From: Candidatus Woesearchaeota archaeon
Lineage (GTDB): Archaea > Nanobdellota > Nanobdellia > Woesearchaeales > ARS49
Direction of reading: 5' to 3'
Length of the DNA: 64,000 nt
Assembly (NCBI GenBank): GCA_030750765.1
Contig: JASMHM010000001.1
Location: 220,541 to 284,540 of the forward strand
The position numbers and the translations under genes were made by a program. A model generated the notes under the pieces. It ran no database searches. It had not been told where the DNA came from and was given only the letters and a program-made list of their open reading frames with translations. Of this stretch, positions 18,259 to 44,901 are shown piece after piece. Numbering within the stretch: position 1 is the first letter of the stretch; every line of letters starts with the position of its first letter.

Positions 18259-18837
18259 ATGAGCGACAATAAGTCGACAATGGCATTGTTTGTGGTAGCG
18301 CTTGTTGCCTTCGCAGCCGTTGCCATGAACACAGAACTTGCCAGCACCGGCATGTACCAAACCCCAAACATCTACTCTTCTCAGACCGCACCGATAAGCT
18401 CGTATAGAGGCGTTGCGTACGGTCCTCGATGGTCAGAACAAAGAGCTTTTACCACCACTAAAAGAAATGTAGTAGTGTCAAGACAAAACCAAGTTCCTAA
18501 CTCACAAGATTCAAGACGAGTGTTATCACAATACCCCGTAGGTGTTGAGGACGCCCTACAAGTGCCTGCGTACACTCCGAGAACGTATCCTTACTCAGGA
18601 TATGGAAATGAGGCTACGTATGGCTCGCGAACGTACAATAGCGTGGTTCAACGCACACCTTACCAGATAGAAAACGTACAAAGACCTTCTTACACCGGAA
18701 CAAACCCTGCAGTGTCTGGATACACACACAACTCCGGGCAAGCCAGATTCTACGCGAGCACCTTCCAAAGAGGCAATGATGTGAAAGGCAGCCAACACTT
18801 GAACACCGGTCAAGTTCCTACAACAAACTGGAGATAA
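18259..18837 (+). CDS. Tyr/Ser/Gln-rich secreted or anchored protein with STG motif
   Basis: Residues 8-24 form one hydrophobic helix (ALFVVALVAFAAVAMN) followed by ELASTGMYQTP; the remaining 160 residues are low-complexity, rich in Tyr, Ser, Thr, Gln, Asn and Arg, and probably unstructured outside the cell. The TATA box CATATAAAT (18226-18234) lies about 28 bp before the ATG. The N-terminus closely resembles that of the gene at 21414-21692 (short polar lead, hydrophobic helix, MN, then STG). Function unknown. Confidence 0.65.
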   Translation: MSDNKSTMALFVVALVAFAAVAMNTELASTGMYQTPNIYSSQTAPISSYRGVAYGPRWSEQRAFTTTKRNVVVSRQNQVPNSQDSRRVLSQYPVGVEDALQVPAYTPRTYPYSGYGNEATYGSRTYNSVVQRTPYQIENVQRPSYTGTNPAVSGYTHNSGQARFYASTFQRGNDVKGSQHLNTGQVPTTNWR

Positions 18838-18876
18838 CCCGTAAAAGTTTATAAACCTCCACCGCCTTTCTTTTTC

Positions 18877-19155
18877 ATGAGCAGAGCAACGTTCTTGTTG
18901 AATATTCAGGATAAGGTGACCGTAGAGGGAGACGCGACGTGTACACCACACCACCTCCCTCACAGGCTTCCTTATGGAGAACCTATTTCAGATGAATCTT
19001 GTCATTATCACCATGGCATGTTGAGAATGTCCCACCACGTTCCTTTCTGCATCCTTCTTAGGTGCCAACACTATCAAACAATGATGGACGCCTACAGGAA
19101 TAAAGAATTTAGTTCTAAAGAACCAACAGCCAAGGCAAGGGGTCGAGTGCAGTAG
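18877..19155 (+). CDS. Cys/His-rich small protein (92 aa)
   Basis: No family recognised. It has four Cys and eleven or so His arranged in clusters (CTPHHLPHRL, SCHYHHG, FCILLRCQH), which suggests metal binding. A TATA box GTTTATAAA lies at about 18847-18855, roughly 26 bp before the ATG. It stands alone just before the toxin-antitoxin array. Confidence 0.5.
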   Translation: MSRATFLLNIQDKVTVEGDATCTPHHLPHRLPYGEPISDESCHYHHGMLRMSHHVPFCILLRCQHYQTMMDAYRNKEFSSKEPTAKARGRVQ

Positions 19156-19180
19156 CAGGACACCAAGAACGCATCTACAA

Positions 19181-19195
19181 ATAGCCCCCCGCAGA
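19181..19195 (-). repeat. Degenerate copy of tRNA-Gln 3' end
   Basis: The plus strand reads ATAGCCCCCCGCAGA, a weak match to ATAGCCCCGCGCGGA at the 3' end of the tRNA-Gln at 21995. It has the same orientation and bounds the hicBA module on its far side. Alone it would be unconvincing; it counts as the third in a series with 19670 and 20212. Confidence 0.3.
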
Positions 19196-19199
19196 AAGA

Positions 19200-19427
19200 T
19201 CACTTCACAAGACGCATGAATTGATCGCGAGAGATTTTCAGGTCCTTCTTGACTATTTTAAGTAACAGTCCCGGACCGATGTCCTCACCAGAATGATGAG
19301 GTATGGTAGCTCTCCGGCCATCGGCATGCTTGTACACCATATGACTTCCGGTGGTGTGACTATACGCGAAGCCTAACTTGCCAACTATCTTTCCTACTTC
19401 TCTCCCAGTAAGTTTAGGTAGTTTCAC
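19200..19427 (-). CDS. hicA: HicA-type mRNA interferase toxin
   Basis: A 75-aa protein of the HicA/YcfA family with a double-stranded-RNA-binding-like fold. KLPKLTGREVGKIVGKLGF is the usual opening; the catalytic His lies in TTGSHMVYKH. The start overlaps the hicB stop by 4 bp (ATGA), which is the antitoxin-first order. It would cleave mRNA in a ribosome-independent way when free of HicB. Confidence 0.88.
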   Translation of the reverse strand: MKLPKLTGREVGKIVGKLGFAYSHTTGSHMVYKHADGRRATIPHHSGEDIGPGLLLKIVKKDLKISRDQFMRLVK

Positions 19428-19630
19428 ACTTCTATTTGTTTTACACCAACAAATTCGTGTAAGAGCTCTGGTTGGTCTTCAGACTCGAGATAGGCCTTAA
19501 TGGCTTCCTTAGTTCTTTGCATTAGCTCATCCATCGACTTAGCTTGCGTATGACAACCCGGCAAGCCAACCACTTCTGAAACAAGCCATCCTTCCTCGTC
19601 TTTTTCTACTAAGACCGTAAATTTTGCCAT
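19424..19630 (-). CDS. hicB: HicB-type antitoxin
   Basis: Residues 1-60 match the HicB partial RNase H fold: FTVLVEKDEEGWLVSEVVGL then PGCHTQAKSMDELM. The ATG at 19630 is chosen over an in-frame start 15 bp upstream because the TATA box TTTTATATAC (19651-19660) lies about 25 bp away. No DNA-binding C-terminal domain is seen, so autorepression may be weak. A tRNA-Gln-like repeat (19670-19687) sits directly behind the promoter. Confidence 0.85.
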   Translation of the reverse strand: MAKFTVLVEKDEEGWLVSEVVGLPGCHTQAKSMDELMQRTKEAIKAYLESEDQPELLHEFVGVKQIEV

Positions 19631-19669
19631 ACCCGTATGTAGCAAAGTAGGTATATAAAAGTTTGCAAG

Positions 19670-19687
19670 GATAGCTCCGCGCGGACT
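19670..19687 (-). repeat. tRNA-Gln 3'-end copy (attachment-site-like) between hicBA and relBE
   Basis: The 18 bp GATAGCTCCGCGCGGACT differ at one base from the copy at 20212-20229. Complemented, they match the last 14 nt of both tRNA-Gln genes in this window, with one mismatch. Orientation is the same as in the tRNA at 21995. This is what successive integrations into a tRNA 3' end would leave. Confidence 0.55.
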
Positions 19688-19770
19688 AGAATAGGCAGGT
19701 TAGAAAAAACAGGGCTAACAGGCAGAGAAAATGGCACAATCTTTATAAGGAAGAAAAGCATTACAATTAT

Positions 19771-19962
19771 ATGACAGAATTAACATTGAAAGGAGTCCAC
19801 AACGAAGTGGAAGAATTGAAGAAAGAAGTTAAAAAAATGAAGGTTCTTGTAGAAGAGGATTTCGAGCTTAGCGAGAACGCAAAAAAAGAACTAGCAGAAT
19901 CCAGAAATGAAGACGTTTCTACCTACGTAGATGAAGAAGAAGTCACCAAAGAATTCTCATGA
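19771..19962 (+). CDS. RelB-like antitoxin of a RelE/ParE pair
   Basis: A 63-aa acidic, helical protein rich in Glu and Lys that overlaps the toxin start by 4 bp. It lacks a clear DNA-binding domain. A TATA-like CTTTATAAGG (19740-19749) lies about 25 bp before the ATG. It is assigned as antitoxin from position and composition. Confidence 0.75.
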   Translation: MTELTLKGVHNEVEELKKEVKKMKVLVEEDFELSENAKKELAESRNEDVSTYVDEEEVTKEFS

Positions 19963-20216
19963 GTTACACCATAAAGTGGAGACCCCAAGCAGTAAAAGGT
20001 CTTAGAAAAATTCCTAAAGAAATCGCAAAAAAACTCGTTCGCAGAGTGAATGCTAGCAAAGAAAACCCCAAATCTGCATTAGAAAAAATGGAAGACTATG
20101 ATACCTACAAGTGTCGGCAAGGGGACTATCGAGCCATCATCGACATATTGGAAGATCAAAAAATAATTGCAGTCAAAGTAGTAGACCATCGTAGGAATAT
20201 TTACAAAAACAGATAG
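19959..20216 (+). CDS. RelE/ParE-superfamily toxin
   Basis: An 85-aa protein with the RelE pattern: YTIKWRPQAVKGLRKIPKEI, then YKCRQGDYRAIIDIL and the end VKVVDHRRNIYK. Arg in GDYRAI and the C-terminal HRRNIY fit ribosome-dependent mRNA cleavage. Its stop codon lies inside the tRNA-Gln-like repeat at 20212-20229. Confidence 0.88.
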   Translation: MSYTIKWRPQAVKGLRKIPKEIAKKLVRRVNASKENPKSALEKMEDYDTYKCRQGDYRAIIDILEDQKIIAVKVVDHRRNIYKNR

Positions 20217-20229
20217 CCCCGCGCGGACT
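20212..20229 (-). repeat. tRNA-Gln 3'-end copy (attachment-site-like) after relBE
   Basis: GATAGCCCCGCGCGGACT. Its complement contains TCCGCGCGGGGCTA, identical to the last 14 nt of the tRNA-Gln genes at 21995 and 44829. With the copy at 19670 it bounds a 524-bp unit holding only relBE. Confidence 0.6.
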
Positions 20230-20347
20230 CACGACACCAGGGGTTGATATCGAGGGCTAATAAGGCGCTCTGCGCATACAGCTTGAAACTGAGTCTACAC
20301 CCCCACCGAGTAATGTATATAGAAGATTCTTTTCCAAGATCTAATGG

Positions 20348-21433
20348 CTAAGTTACTACCTCAATCTCAGGATGAGGCTCAATAGGCCAATCACCAGGAT
20401 CAGCAGACGCCACTACCTCAATCTCAGGATGAGGCTCAATAGGCCAATCACCAGGATCAGCAGACGCCACTACCTCAATCTCAGCCCAAGGATTTGTTCC
20501 TCCAAAGAAATAACTACAGAACGAATCACACTTTCCAGGATTGACGCAGGTTTCTTCAATACCACAATCAGAGTTTGAAGAGCAAGAAACTCCCACACCT
20601 AGCGTAAGCGCAACGCTTTCATTACAATTGCAAATGTCTCTGCCTACTCGTGCAGGCATGTTTTGGCATGATGTTCCATCCACAACGCTAGCAATCGCCA
20701 AACGATTCATATCAAGCATCGCCTCCATATCACAGTTTGCCTTATCATTATTGTATGTCTTCATTGCACAAGAACAAATATCACGGCCTACTCGTGCAGG
20801 CATGTTTTGGCATGATGTTCCATCCAACCAGGGAGCAAGCTCAAACAAACGATTCATATCAAGCATCGCCCCCATATCACAGTTTGCCTTATCATTATTG
20901 TATGTCTTCATTGCACAAGAACAAATGGAGTCACTAGCTTGAGAGGCTTCAGCGGGACAATTTTCTGAGTTCTCAGCCATATCAATCATCGCCCCCATAT
21001 CCGAGCAGTCGCTAGGCGGTGAAATACATTTGCCGCCATCAATAGGCCAATCACCAGAATCGCAATTTCCGTCACCGCAGCCGCTGTCGCTGCAGAGATA
21101 TCCATATCCTTGGTCTCCTGTATAACTAGAATCGACTAACTGTTGATAATATAAACGGGGACTTTTAGAATAATCGCATTCTCTTAACCCTTTAATCTCT
21201 TTGTAAGTCTCAAGACCGTCGATAGTTACACATTTTAGGGCATCCCGGAGGGATTCATCCTCAAAATCATAAATTGCAAAATCTCCGCCTACACATCCAT
21301 GGTCGCTGTAGACCTGCTGCCCTGTTGGTGCGCCTTCGCCGACGAAGTCCATGATGAGCAACACGGCGAGCAACGCCATCACGATGATCACTATATCGGT
21401 AGAATTTCTGCCACTACTGAAACTCTTTGACAT
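20348..21433 (-). CDS. Secreted Cys-rich protein with tandem 49-aa modules
   Basis: Residues 13-30 are a hydrophobic anchor (DIVIIVMALLAVLLIMDF) followed by GAPTGQQVYS. The ectodomain holds two near-identical 49-aa modules (147-bp DNA period) and a partial third, each with CSCAMKTYNNDKANCDM and SCQNMPARVGRD; about 30 Cys in all suggest many disulfides or metal sites. The C-terminus repeats EIEVVASADPGDWPIEPHP, and GDWPI also occurs in the middle. It overlaps the upstream small STG-protein gene by 20 bp. No known family is recognised; an adhesin or envelope protein is a guess. Confidence 0.7.
   Translation of the reverse strand: MSKSFSSGRNSTDIVIIVMALLAVLLIMDFVGEGAPTGQQVYSDHGCVGGDFAIYDFEDESLRDALKCVTIDGLETYKEIKGLRECDYSKSPRLYYQQLVDSSYTGDQGYGYLCSDSGCGDGNCDSGDWPIDGGKCISPPSDCSDMGAMIDMAENSENCPAEASQASDSICSCAMKTYNNDKANCDMGAMLDMNRLFELAPWLDGTSCQNMPARVGRDICSCAMKTYNNDKANCDMEAMLDMNRLAIASVVDGTSCQNMPARVGRDICNCNESVALTLGVGVSCSSNSDCGIEETCVNPGKCDSFCSYFFGGTNPWAEIEVVASADPGDWPIEPHPEIEVVASADPGDWPIEPHPEIEVVT
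20355..20484. repeat. 57-bp tandem repeat, 2.3 copies
   Basis: Units start at 20355, 20412 and 20469 and each begins ACTACCTCAATCTCAG. The first two are identical; the third breaks off after about 16 bp. They encode the repeated C-terminal peptide of the Cys-rich protein and stay in frame (19 aa per unit). Confidence 0.85.
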
Positions 21434-21692
21434 ATTCGCCCACCCCTATTTGAGCATAATCGCGCGGTGAAAAATCTTCCCAGTCAGAAGCTGAGGCGCA
21501 TGACGCTTCCGCGAGTGGAGCGACTATTCCTCGGCTAGTAGTATTCGCGAAACATTCTGCATAGCTAGAAAAGTGTTTTAAGGTACTAACTTCTACAAAG
21601 TTGCCCGTACTGGAACTGTTCATTTGAAGAGTCAATGTGGCTATTGCTACCAAGGCAACAATTGAAGAATGTGTGTTGTGATTATTGCTCAT
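21414..21692 (-). CDS. Small anchored protein with STG motif (92 aa)
   Basis: A short polar lead, a hydrophobic segment (SIVALVAIATLTLQMN) and then SSSTGNFVEV, followed by a Ser/Ala-rich region with two Cys. The TATA box TTTTTATAG (21713-21721) predicts a leaderless start at 21692. It overlaps the Cys-rich protein gene by 20 bp, so the two probably form one unit. Its N-terminus resembles that of the 18259 product. Function unknown. Confidence 0.6.
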   Translation of the reverse strand: MSNNHNTHSSIVALVAIATLTLQMNSSSTGNFVEVSTLKHFSSYAECFANTTSRGIVAPLAEASCASASDWEDFSPRDYAQIGVGEYVKEFQ

Positions 21693-21721
21693 TAGAACCT
21701 CTCATCCCTCATACTATAAAA

Positions 21722-21994
21722 ATGTGTGGATGTACTGGCCACGCCCTAAGAGTCAGTAAATGAGTTTGAACGGGTTGTAGCAGGCTATTTTGGTTTACAC
21801 GTCAGGGGATGGTTCGTACTTTTTTGCTTACTACACTTCCTCCGCAGCATTGTTTAGTGATGCCTATGCCCAATTCGATGGTTTGTCTGCAGTTGTAGGT
21901 TTTGGTGCGGCAGTGTTTGGCTCACCCCATAGGCGCTAGGTTTTGAGCTAGAACTAGTTTAATGTTCCCTTTCTTTCCCTGCGCGCTATTACTA
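21722..21994. other. Gap downstream of tRNA-Gln with an ORF remnant
   Basis: No intact gene. On the minus strand a frame runs from just after the tRNA to 21802 and is cut by one in-frame TGA (21922-21924). Downstream of it the frame would give KHCRTKTYNCRQTIELG and then GIGITKQCCGGSVVSKK, a Cys-containing sequence that looks coding. No start codon follows the TGA. I read it as a possible gene remnant, with low certainty. Confidence 0.3.
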
Positions 21995-22067
21995 TAGCCC
22001 CGCGCGGAATCGAACCGCGGTCTGCCGGTCCAGAGCCGGCTGTACTTGGCCGCTATACTACGGGGCT
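21995..22067 (-). tRNA. tRNA-Gln (anticodon CUG)
   Basis: A full cloverleaf of 73 nt: acceptor AGCCCCG/CGGGGCT with discriminator A, anticodon stem GCCGG/CCGGC with loop CTCTGGA (anticodon CTG, codon CAG) and T arm GCGGTTCGATTCCGC. CCA is not encoded. Fragments of its 3' end recur downstream at 20212, 19670 and 19181. Confidence 0.95.
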
Positions 22068-22096
22068 AGGTTAAGAAAAAGGAGTGTGGGCGGCTT

Positions 22097-42439: not shown

Positions 42440-42573
42440 CTTGTCTACCTCCTTTGTCTTATATCCATGTTGGATTGTTATTTCCCAAAAACCTAAATAG
42501 TTAGTTTAGAACTTTTAGTCTAGAGCACGTATAGAGTGATCGCTTTTAAAGTCATCGCTTCTGGGTGCCAAAA

Positions 42574-42587
42574 TAGCCCGCGCGGCT
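42574..42587 (-). repeat. tRNA-Gln 3'-end-like fragment
   Basis: TAGCCCGCGCGGCT, complement AGCCGCGCGGGCTA, close to the tRNA-Gln 3' end (one G fewer, one base changed). It lies in the same orientation downstream of the tRNA-Gln at 44829, with the split metalloprotease gene between them. Confidence 0.35.
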
Positions 42588-42648: not shown

Positions 42649-43902
42649 TCACGCTGCGCTGCGGTTCTTGAATGCCTTGTTGTAGGTTTTTATGGATTCC
42701 AGGATTATCTTTCCTATTACGTCGTCCCCAAGGGCGCATTCAATACCCAGATCTTCACATGCTTGTTGGTAATCCTTGAACAATTGCATTTCTCCTATGC
42801 TCATTCTTTTTGCCATTAATTTCACGATTCGCTTGTCAAATCTGTACACCGTAAAGTTATGCCCTTCGTGGTACTTTTTTGCAAAATTCTTCTGTGTAAC
42901 TGGTTTTATGCCGGCTTCTTCCAAAAGACCTTTGAGTTTGGCAGGATCTCTTCTTGCTTTGAAAACTTCTTTGTCCATGCTTTCTTGTCTTAGTTCTTTT
43001 GGAAGCGTGTAGCCGTATTTGATTCCTGAAAGATACTTTTGGGAGATCGGGAAGCTTTCCTGGCCTTTTTCAATTAAATCGTTTTTTGTAATGATAAGAG
43101 GGTCTTTACCATTCTTGAAAAGCCAGTTAATTGCAACAACCATGCTCATAAGGTATCCAAACTCGTAGGCAAAATGATGCATGCCTTCAGACCCTCCCAA
43201 ACGTTCCCTCACTGATCCAACAATAAGTTCGGTGAGATTAGCTGCAAGCATCCTGAAGTGTTGGAGGATGTCCTGGGTTACTTGTTTCAAAGGCAATGTT
43301 ACCATGAAGTCTCCGTAGTATTCTCCGTCTTTTTCTACGAAAAACTCAGTAAACACCGTTATGGCTTCTGCTCTTGATCTTACGAAAAGGTCGCTTAGGG
43401 ATTGTATTTCGTCAGGAGGGAGTATTAGAAAGTTCCCGAAGATTTCATTCATCGTTTTGGGAAGGATTTGGAACAAAATCCCTCCTTTTTGGTCTAATCG
43501 CAATGCAGCAGGATCTATTGAATGCGTAAACTCGTGATATAGAGTATGGTAGAAAACGCGATCTCTGTACAGTCCTTCTTTGTAAATTTGTGTAGGCTGG
43601 AGTTGGAGCGAGAACAGTTCTCTAACTAACCTTCCGGTTTGCTGATTTAGTATTTGGGAAATCATCTCCTTGTCAATTGCGGAGTATAGGTCCTGTGCAA
43701 AAAAGAGGGGCAGGTAGAGGAATGTGCATCCTACGTCAATTACTTTGTAATTGTCTCCTAGGCATTTTCCTGGATTGCAAGCAGCGTCGAAAGTAAAATT
43801 TCCCTTGGCAGATCCAAAAATGTTAATAACAAATGTCATCGAGGGCATGATGAAAAGCTCAGGATTTTGTTGAAGAAGCATGACCATTGCTTGGTACGTC
43901 AT
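42649..43902 (-). CDS. HExxH metalloprotease-like protein (3' part of a split gene)
   Basis: TLYHEFTHSIDPAA (about residue 120) contains HEFTH, a zinc-protease motif; third-ligand candidates lie downstream (NEIFGNF). No signal peptide. ATG 43902 is the first start, but the frame stays open another 35 codons up to TAA 44008-44010 and those codons look coding (ENYKLIRAHAEKFQDV). The upstream gene 44008-44772 ends in the same frame at that TAA. One 707-aa protein with an in-frame stop is a likely reading. Confidence 0.65.
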   Translation of the reverse strand: MTYQAMVMLLQQNPELFIMPSMTFVINIFGSAKGNFTFDAACNPGKCLGDNYKVIDVGCTFLYLPLFFAQDLYSAIDKEMISQILNQQTGRLVRELFSLQLQPTQIYKEGLYRDRVFYHTLYHEFTHSIDPAALRLDQKGGILFQILPKTMNEIFGNFLILPPDEIQSLSDLFVRSRAEAITVFTEFFVEKDGEYYGDFMVTLPLKQVTQDILQHFRMLAANLTELIVGSVRERLGGSEGMHHFAYEFGYLMSMVVAINWLFKNGKDPLIITKNDLIEKGQESFPISQKYLSGIKYGYTLPKELRQESMDKEVFKARRDPAKLKGLLEEAGIKPVTQKNFAKKYHEGHNFTVYRFDKRIVKLMAKRMSIGEMQLFKDYQQACEDLGIECALGDDVIGKIILESIKTYNKAFKNRSAA

Positions 43903-44007: not shown

Positions 44008-44772
44008 TTAGAATTCTTCTAGTATTTGAAGGGTTTCTTGAGGGTCAAAAGGTGCTTCGTATCTCACAATTATTCTTGCTTTGTTGCTTCCGAACTCTAC
44101 TTTCTCATCGATCGGTTTTGGCACGTGCTTGCTAGGCCTTAGCTTGACTTCATATGCAGGTATCCACTTTAGCACGGCACCTACCTTTTTTTCCGCCTGC
44201 AAATAGTCTGTAAGTAATGCTTGCAACCAGGTTTCAAAGTCTTCCGCTGCGTCCATAAGCTTGCGTAGGGAATCTTTTTGATCCTCTCCTGCAAGAATCA
44301 GTCGCTGAGTTTCTTGGAGACCATCTCGTATGTTTTTTTCAAAGTTGGCGCAAATGCTCTCATTTTTTGCATGTAGTTTATCAATGCTGTCCATGAACTC
44401 ATTTACAACTCTTTCTTCCTCTACCGAGGTCGCTCTATCATACGGTTGCCCAGAGATCTTCCTTCGGATTGTTTCCTTCATGCGGGAATAGGTGCCTTTT
44501 AATTTTGAATTTTGTAGGGTTTTCTGGATCAGCGCATTTATCTCATACTTTATTGTTGAAACATGCATGGCCTCTAAATGGGATCTTTCTTTTAGAAACT
44601 CTAATTGATGCATTACTTGTTGTAAGTCTTCCAAGGATTCTGCTTGTAAGGCATTCTGACAGTCTTCAACAAGTTTCCTTATGCTTCTCTTCAAAACTTG
44701 AAAGTACTCGAACTCTTTTGATACTTCTGTTACCGCAGCATGAACCTCTGCTTTTAAGGCTTTCATTTCCAA
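44008..44772 (-). CDS. Coiled-coil protein (5' part of a split gene)
   Basis: A long helical protein, with heptad-like Leu/Glu/Lys (DLQQVMHQLEFLKERSHLE) over about 190 residues, then a beta-type C-terminal part ending ETLQILEEF and TAA. The same frame continues without another stop into the metalloprotease gene. The 5' end is 57 bp from a tRNA-Gln gene. No family is recognised for this part. Confidence 0.6.
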   Translation of the reverse strand: MEMKALKAEVHAAVTEVSKEFEYFQVLKRSIRKLVEDCQNALQAESLEDLQQVMHQLEFLKERSHLEAMHVSTIKYEINALIQKTLQNSKLKGTYSRMKETIRRKISGQPYDRATSVEEERVVNEFMDSIDKLHAKNESICANFEKNIRDGLQETQRLILAGEDQKDSLRKLMDAAEDFETWLQALLTDYLQAEKKVGAVLKWIPAYEVKLRPSKHVPKPIDEKVEFGSNKARIIVRYEAPFDPQETLQILEEF

Positions 44773-44828: not shown

Positions 44829-44901
44829 TAGCCCCGCGCGGATTCGAACCGCGGTCTCAAGGTCCAAAGCCTCGCATACTTGGCCACTATACTACGGGGC
44901 T
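44829..44901 (-). tRNA. tRNA-Gln (anticodon UUG)
   Basis: Cloverleaf of 73 nt: acceptor AGCCCCG/CGGGGCT with discriminator A, anticodon stem CGAGG/CCTTG with one G.U pair, loop CTTTGGA (anticodon TTG, codon CAA), T arm GCGGTTCGAATCCGC. CCA is not encoded. It shares most of its sequence with the tRNA-Gln at 21995. Confidence 0.95.

Follow-up and report, generated by a model that had tools for sequence, protein, structure and literature searches.

Cargo that lies between attachment sites and lacks a recombinase of its own is known from cis-mobilizable elements (CIMEs), and tRNA anchoring together with arrays is known from tycheposons. Both are bacterial and measure kilobases to tens of kilobases. 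Here we describe small, toxin-antitoxin-rich units behind the tRNA-Gln(CTG) gene in a 64,000-nucleotide stretch of a very small marine archaeon, Candidatus Woesearchaeota (contig JASMHM010000001.1, positions 220,541 to 284,540; the whole stretch is hereafter called the window). They share these features with CIMEs and tycheposons and are unlike them in size and host.

The cryptic integrated elements of Thaumarchaeota integrate at tRNA 3' ends through short sites (median 17 bp), and tandem re-use of such sites is known (PMC6563490). The smallest one reported in that study is 2.6 kb long and encodes an integrase (PMC6563490). The units described here also have tRNA 3'-end sites, but they are mostly 0.5-0.8 kb and integrase-free. 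Fragments of tRNA genes left by integration are commonplace (PMC9897764).

Integron cassettes, including toxin-antitoxin cassettes and those of archaeal integrons and clusters of attC sites lacking integron integrases (CALINs), are alike in forming tandem sub-kilobase units of one gene or toxin-antitoxin pair each, with a recombination site at the gene end and no enzyme in the unit (PMC9668308). Integrons, however, have attC, attI and IntI, whereas here we find copies of the local tRNA 3' end and tRNA anchors, many per genome, with no IntI identified. The repeats are plain tRNA 3'-end copies, unlike attC (as judged without an attC model), and no integron integrase neighbours the window locus. 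The dif/pdif modules of Acinetobacter plasmids are likewise small toxin-antitoxin or adaptive units with short tyrosine-recombinase sites and an enzyme acting in trans (PMC6449649). Unlike these modules, the units here are chromosomal, archaeal and placed at tRNAs. No dif-like site was seen in them, and their repeats are direct and tRNA-derived rather than inverse sites of the XerC/D type. The units resemble integron cassettes and dif modules in how they operate, and are members of neither class.

Our literature search, which left subscription papers aside and is weak evidence of absence, found no report of sub-kilobase, toxin-antitoxin-only units at archaeal tRNAs. As far as we found, the results below point to a swappable gene-cassette system that is new for these archaea.

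Results

The 3' end of tRNA-Gln(CTG) recurs behind the gene, in the orientation of the tRNA, as real repeats (Table 1). The exact 15-mer of the tRNA end, TCCGCGCGGGGCTAT, is present at 20213-20227 (15/15, or 17/18 when lengthened to 20230). The original prediction described three same-orientation pieces of this tRNA end, and all three were confirmed, those at 20213 and 19671 as exact or near-exact copies and the one at 19181 as a weak copy. The two clear copies do share 17 of 18 positions, as had been claimed (20212-20229 vs 19670-19687). Copy 3 is weak in sequence and is supported by its boundary position, since it is placed 5 bp past the HicA stop.

The window is part of contig C8 of a metagenome-assembled genome (MAG) of 1.14 Mb, G000. 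A search of this genome for the 15-mer with up to 2 mismatches returned the array sites, the second tRNA-Gln (44828) and one other site with 2 mismatches (C8:121868); a reversed-pattern control gave 2 matches. Given so few genomic matches, the motif is not scattered. Near-exact copies are confined to the array and the second tRNA-Gln, instead of lying at random across the genome.

In terms of cargo, the repeats were said to bound, in order, a Cys-rich island with a repetitive secreted protein, relBE and hicBA, and these gene calls were borne out, the toxins and HicB by Pfam. Both pairs are type II toxin-antitoxin systems (RelBE/ParDE and HicBA), with a toxin domain over the curated cut-off and an adjoining antitoxin gene. 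The 361-aa Cys-rich protein and its 92-aa neighbour belong to no Pfam family. A further unit, beyond the original prediction, is probable at about 18849-19180. The stated lack of an integrase also stands for the window locus, in the list of open reading frames (ORFs) as well as in Pfam; the two PF00589 matches of G000 are on other contigs.

A second tRNA-Gln of the window, tRNA-Gln(TTG), had been missed. G006, a same-genus relative (sister species) of G000, has a RelBE pair, with the RelE stop in the tRNA end, and another ORF at this tRNA, and synteny between the two genomes picks up again at the 42573 repeat.

Table 1. Positions in the window of the tRNA-Gln genes, the repeats and the genes of both loci
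Feature	Position	Strand	Remarks
tRNA-Gln(CTG)	21994-22068	-	called by ARAGORN; the array is anchored by its 3' end
Unit 1, 92-aa ORF	21414-21692	-	hydrophobic N-terminal segment
Unit 1, Cys-rich secreted 361-aa protein	20348-21433	-	57-bp and 81-bp internal repeats; common to G006
Repeat copy 1	20213-20230	-	17/18 of tRNA 3' end; RelE stop TAG (20214-20216) inside; kept in sister at L061:196-213
Unit 2, RelE/ParE toxin	19959-20216	+	Pfam PF05016, 2.1e-11; stop within repeat copy 1
Unit 2, antitoxin partner of RelE (RelB position)	19771-19962	+	no Pfam family
Repeat copy 2	19671-19688	-	14/15 core; single mismatch in 19671-19685
Unit 3, HicB antitoxin	19424-19645	-	Pfam PF15919, 2e-6 (HicB-like)
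Unit 3, HicA toxin	19200-19427	-	Pfam PF07927, 2e-14
Repeat copy 3, degenerate	19181-19195	-	13/15; 5 bp past HicA stop
Probable unit 4, 92-aa Cys/His ORF	18877-19155	+	TATA-like box just past decayed copy; tentative
Possible fourth copy, decayed (ATAACCCGTAAAAG)	18835-18848	-	at stop of flanking gene; sister has intact copy there; tentative
Conserved flanking gene	18259-18837	+	ortholog closes array in G006
tRNA-Gln(TTG)	44829-44901	-	called by ARAGORN; anchors second variable unit
TTG unit, 254-aa ORF	44008-44772	-	RelBE and another ORF at this place in G006
TTG unit, 417-aa ORF	42649-43902	-	no Pfam family
One-base-deleted copy of tRNA-Gln 3' end (ATAGCCCGCGCGG)	42573-42585	-	closes 2.24-kb unit

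The tRNA-Gln(CTG) locus of relatives was found through the conserved genes on both flanks. In G006 (locus L061), repeats beyond the shared unit 1 lie at 199, 809, 1497 and 2052. Between them stand a ribbon-helix-helix/Doc pair, an HAD hydrolase and AbrB/RelE, and the array ends at the ortholog of the flanking gene. The sister thus differs in the units after the first one, has the same repeat and does not share the arrangement of the window. Two G006 contigs presumably join at this locus, judging from a shared gene. The Cys-rich gene contains exact 57-bp tandem repeats, and these two contigs (C1:1-100, C49:1-100) end inside them.

Further away, G012, from another genus, has no cassettes at the same tRNA, just a 78-bp tandem copy of the tRNA end. 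Elsewhere in the order, two more families (G027, G236) have gene-bearing intervals between tRNA-Gln copies. Several genera have a geneless tRNA-Gln 3'-end copy about 60-140 bp past the tRNA, each matching the tRNA of its own genome (L062:6453, L121:8600, L123:2248/2314/10013, L125:17979, L126:7608, L131:388, L147:1619).

The pattern is genome-wide, and a frame of one tRNA, as in the original prediction, is too narrow. The tRNA positions of G000, G006 and G012 were taken from an Rfam search and the downstream regions were then compared, a copy being an exact match of at least 12 nt to the tRNA's own 3' end. Such a copy occurs downstream on the same strand for 18 of the 104 tRNAs, against 5 of 2890 permuted tRNA/region pairs (0.17%); the 18 include a few single 12-nt weak matches or very short-range geneless duplications, and gene-bearing units number fewer than 18. 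On the opposite strand the count is 2 of 104.

The cargo between tRNAs and the direct repeats of their 3' ends consists mostly of toxin-antitoxin pairs, each unit having repeats of the local tRNA's end. In G000, tRNA-Glu and tRNA-Leu(TAA) each have RelBE, and tRNA-Trp has an antitoxin/toxin-like pair. G006 has two units at tRNA-Ile. Its tRNA-Arg(TCG) carries RelBE/MazEF/RelBE together with a SET protein, and behind tRNA-Arg(GCG) come a pentapeptide-repeat-like protein and then HicBA. Finally, G012 has VapBC at tRNA-Ile. Some of this cargo is homologous between tRNAs. The DUF2683-RelE pairs of three tRNAs (Arg, Leu and Glu) share 35-54% identity; HicBA is homologous at tRNA-Gln and tRNA-Arg, as is a two-gene pair at tRNA-Ile and another tRNA. 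In all these cases the repeats match their own tRNA.

Empty sites with clean junctions were found at three tRNAs. The two units at tRNA-Ile of G006 are missing in G000, whose tRNA end and flank are the same as the far copy and adjoining flank of G006 (TGTTCGAATCACCGCGGGACCATTCCTATTTTTATACTAG). Conversely, the toxin-antitoxin-like unit at tRNA-Trp of G000 is missing in G006, with a junction of the same kind. At tRNA-Ala(GGC), a 0.94-kb unit of G000 is missing in G006, with a shared core of just about 10 bp. The far end at tRNA-Arg(GCG) keeps only a few tRNA bases. A 4.2-kb stretch that includes tRNA-Ala is 99.95% identical between G006:C43:10126-14288 and G000:C8:175185-179347, in species that otherwise show about 80%. 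The contig may be chimeric or contaminated, or the stretch may have been transferred very recently; C43, being possibly chimeric, was rejected as a guide to what a complete element looks like.

The toxins are concentrated in these units. Pfam finds one ParE in G000 and three in G006, and one HicA in each; all six are within tRNA-anchored units. One further ParE, in G012, adjoins tRNA-Leu. The link between toxins and tRNAs is strong in this genus and the neighbouring one.

The gene ends are closely packed against the repeats, and in most inspected units the stop codon is in the repeat or tRNA end or within about 10 bp of it. The repeat (ATAGCCCC) supplies the stop TAG to RelE of the window, to the ribbon-helix-helix protein and RelE of G006 and to RelE at tRNA-Gln(TTG). 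For RelE at Glu and at Leu, the antitoxin at Trp and the SET protein at Arg, a few bases separate the stop from the repeat or tRNA end. On the side opposite the stop, archaeal TATA-like boxes (TTTATAA, TTTAAA) are found about 10-60 bp inside the unit. A unit is therefore a promoter-to-stop segment and little more. Judging from the sequence, the next unit may take part of its archaeal TFB recognition element (BRE)/TATA promoter from the repeat. An antisense T-loop (TCGAA) or close variant leads directly into AAAGGTTTATAA at L061:2030-2070, L118:2580-2600 and L061:790-815.

Other genes and tRNAs were seen near the units. An asparaginyl/aspartyl-tRNA-synthetase-like protein (PF00152, 3e-72) stands beside RelBE in the tRNA-Leu unit (G000:C8:37662-38936, L158). 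SET-domain or SET-like genes recur by tRNA units (L185:256-819, which is G006:C5:1755-2318; L061:2660-3268), and another SET-like gene, in L121 past 8620, was judged from the start of its translation only. A tRNA-Lys-like gene at G012:C50:11854-11911, near two RelBE pairs, has an apparently interrupted T loop (possible intron).

Discussion

With a probability of roughly 55%, we read these units as integrase-less, toxin-antitoxin-rich cassettes that site-specific recombination, probably through a tyrosine recombinase in trans, has put at tRNA 3' ends. The basis is observed: repeats that match the local tRNA, differing cargo in the sister species, exact empty sites elsewhere, packed gene ends and toxins concentrated in the units. 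The layout of a unit is a tRNA 3'-end copy, a short promoter, antitoxin, toxin, stop and again a tRNA 3'-end copy. A circular cassette with a site resembling the tRNA 3' end would be recombined into the tRNA gene by an enzyme supplied in trans. Integration would restore the tRNA and displace the old 3' end downstream, and repeated rounds would lead to tandem arrays. Toxin-antitoxin cargo would withstand loss through addiction, and the units may be mobile at the present day.

Repeated integration at the tRNA, as originally predicted, is supported by the different cargo of the sister, the non-scattered motif and the clean empty sites at other tRNAs. A bolder reading, which we hold for less likely than not, is a cassette system in its own right, unrelated to integrons, in which nearly any tRNA 3' end would be an entry, units would run from promoter to stop and be dominated by toxin-antitoxin genes, and the repeat would always be local-tRNA sequence.

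Several observations weigh against cassette integration. The clean empty sites are all at tRNAs other than this tRNA-Gln, no empty allele of the tRNA-Gln(CTG) locus was found in the genus, and the Cys-rich unit 1 is common to G000 and G006. Copy 3, with 2 mismatches in 15, is not significant by sequence alone, as about 2 such matches are expected per genome by our estimate. Repeat length differs among units, from about 10 to 25 bp. Since the same cargo stands at tRNAs with different ends, one fixed attachment sequence (attP) is insufficient; several recombinase specificities, or a copying of the local tRNA end (re-templating), are required. In other genera of the family, none of the 26 ParE loci fetched has an ARAGORN tRNA within 1.5 kb, and we rejected a family-wide link of toxin-antitoxin genes to tRNAs outside this genus and its sister genus. 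Synteny differs by at least 400 bp on 8 of 16 upstream and 15 of 25 downstream sides of tRNAs. With upstream sides variable too, variability near tRNAs is nonspecific and only repeats and junctions are specific; the frequency of synteny breaks was dropped as proof. All compared genomes are MAGs. Lastly, the unit genes examined by Pfam contain no integrase, no recombinase is tied to these sites, and the enzyme is a candidate only. Repeats are more decayed the farther they lie from the tRNA in the window but not in G006, and this polarity was left unused.

The search for such an enzyme bears on the rival that survives best, namely that the units are fossils, larger integrase-bearing tRNA elements deleted down to an addictive toxin-antitoxin pair and its attachment site. 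Among 30 integrase loci fetched from the family, about 15 have an integrase of about 330-476 aa close to a tRNA. Contig C1 of G000 opens with a tRNA-Glu directly followed by an intact-looking 444-aa tyrosine recombinase, the candidate enzyme, which also counts in favour of cassette integration. It matches Pfam Phage_integrase and NCBIfam XerA weakly, and R, HxxR and Y motifs were read in it by eye. This tRNA-Glu equals, over 77 bp, the tRNA-Glu of C14 that carries the RelBE unit, and by sequence C1 and C14 appear to continue a single tRNA in two different ways, through strain variation or as two loci. The same tRNA is thus seen both with a RelBE unit and with an integrase. A truncated relative of the recombinase is at tRNA-Glu of G006, and no other family member has one. 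The tight layout, however, recurs, with a whole promoter, a pair, and a stop at or in the repeat within 0.5-0.8 kb, whereas random deletion would leave ragged ends and debris and should not yield arrays of three or four such units. We therefore consider a fossil origin rather unlikely.

A viral source was also looked for. In IMG/VR, neither a viral relative of the C1 integrase nor an exact tRNA-Glu site was found. The 18-mer occurs in one IMG/VR contig, inside a coding gene of an apparent GC-rich phage; we took this as chance and rejected it as a viral att site. A phage origin of RelE was rejected as well, the phage matches being only distant, to Streptococcus phages.

Enzyme-free shuffling, in which toxin-antitoxin genes are swapped among strains by homologous or illegitimate recombination, would have natural anchors in the repeats and tRNAs. 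It would also fit the 213 bp beside copy 1, which are 97% identical between G000 and G006 against about 80-85% in the flanks, suggesting recent exchange. It leaves unexplained, however, how the first repeat arose with an exact junction at the empty tRNA-Trp and tRNA-Ile, and we hold it for improbable.

Insertion of transposase type, for example by a casposase (Cas1), with target-site duplication at tRNA 3' ends, would likewise leave a far repeat and an ancestral flank and would account for repeats that always match the local tRNA. We give this very little credence, with Cas1 absent from G000, G006 and G012, repeat lengths that vary, and no conserved terminal inverted repeats seen on reading through units (no unit-by-unit search was made). 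Just as improbable is that the repeats serve as signals in RNA or DNA, such as terminators, processing sites or promoter elements, and not as recombination sites: they provide stop codons, have the antisense T-loop at the BRE place in a few units and occur as geneless copies 30-140 bp past tRNAs, but empty alleles are without repeats and the cargo between repeats differs in sisters.

Cassette integration predicts a site at every tRNA, and with filled and empty alleles both available the junctions are directly testable. That toxin end and repeat coincide is also relevant to the making of cassettes, a question that integrons leave open too. If true, cassette integration would mean cassette-type gene exchange in DPANN archaea with reduced genomes, where mobile elements are poorly known, and it would account for the source and spread of the toxin-antitoxin genes of these archaea.

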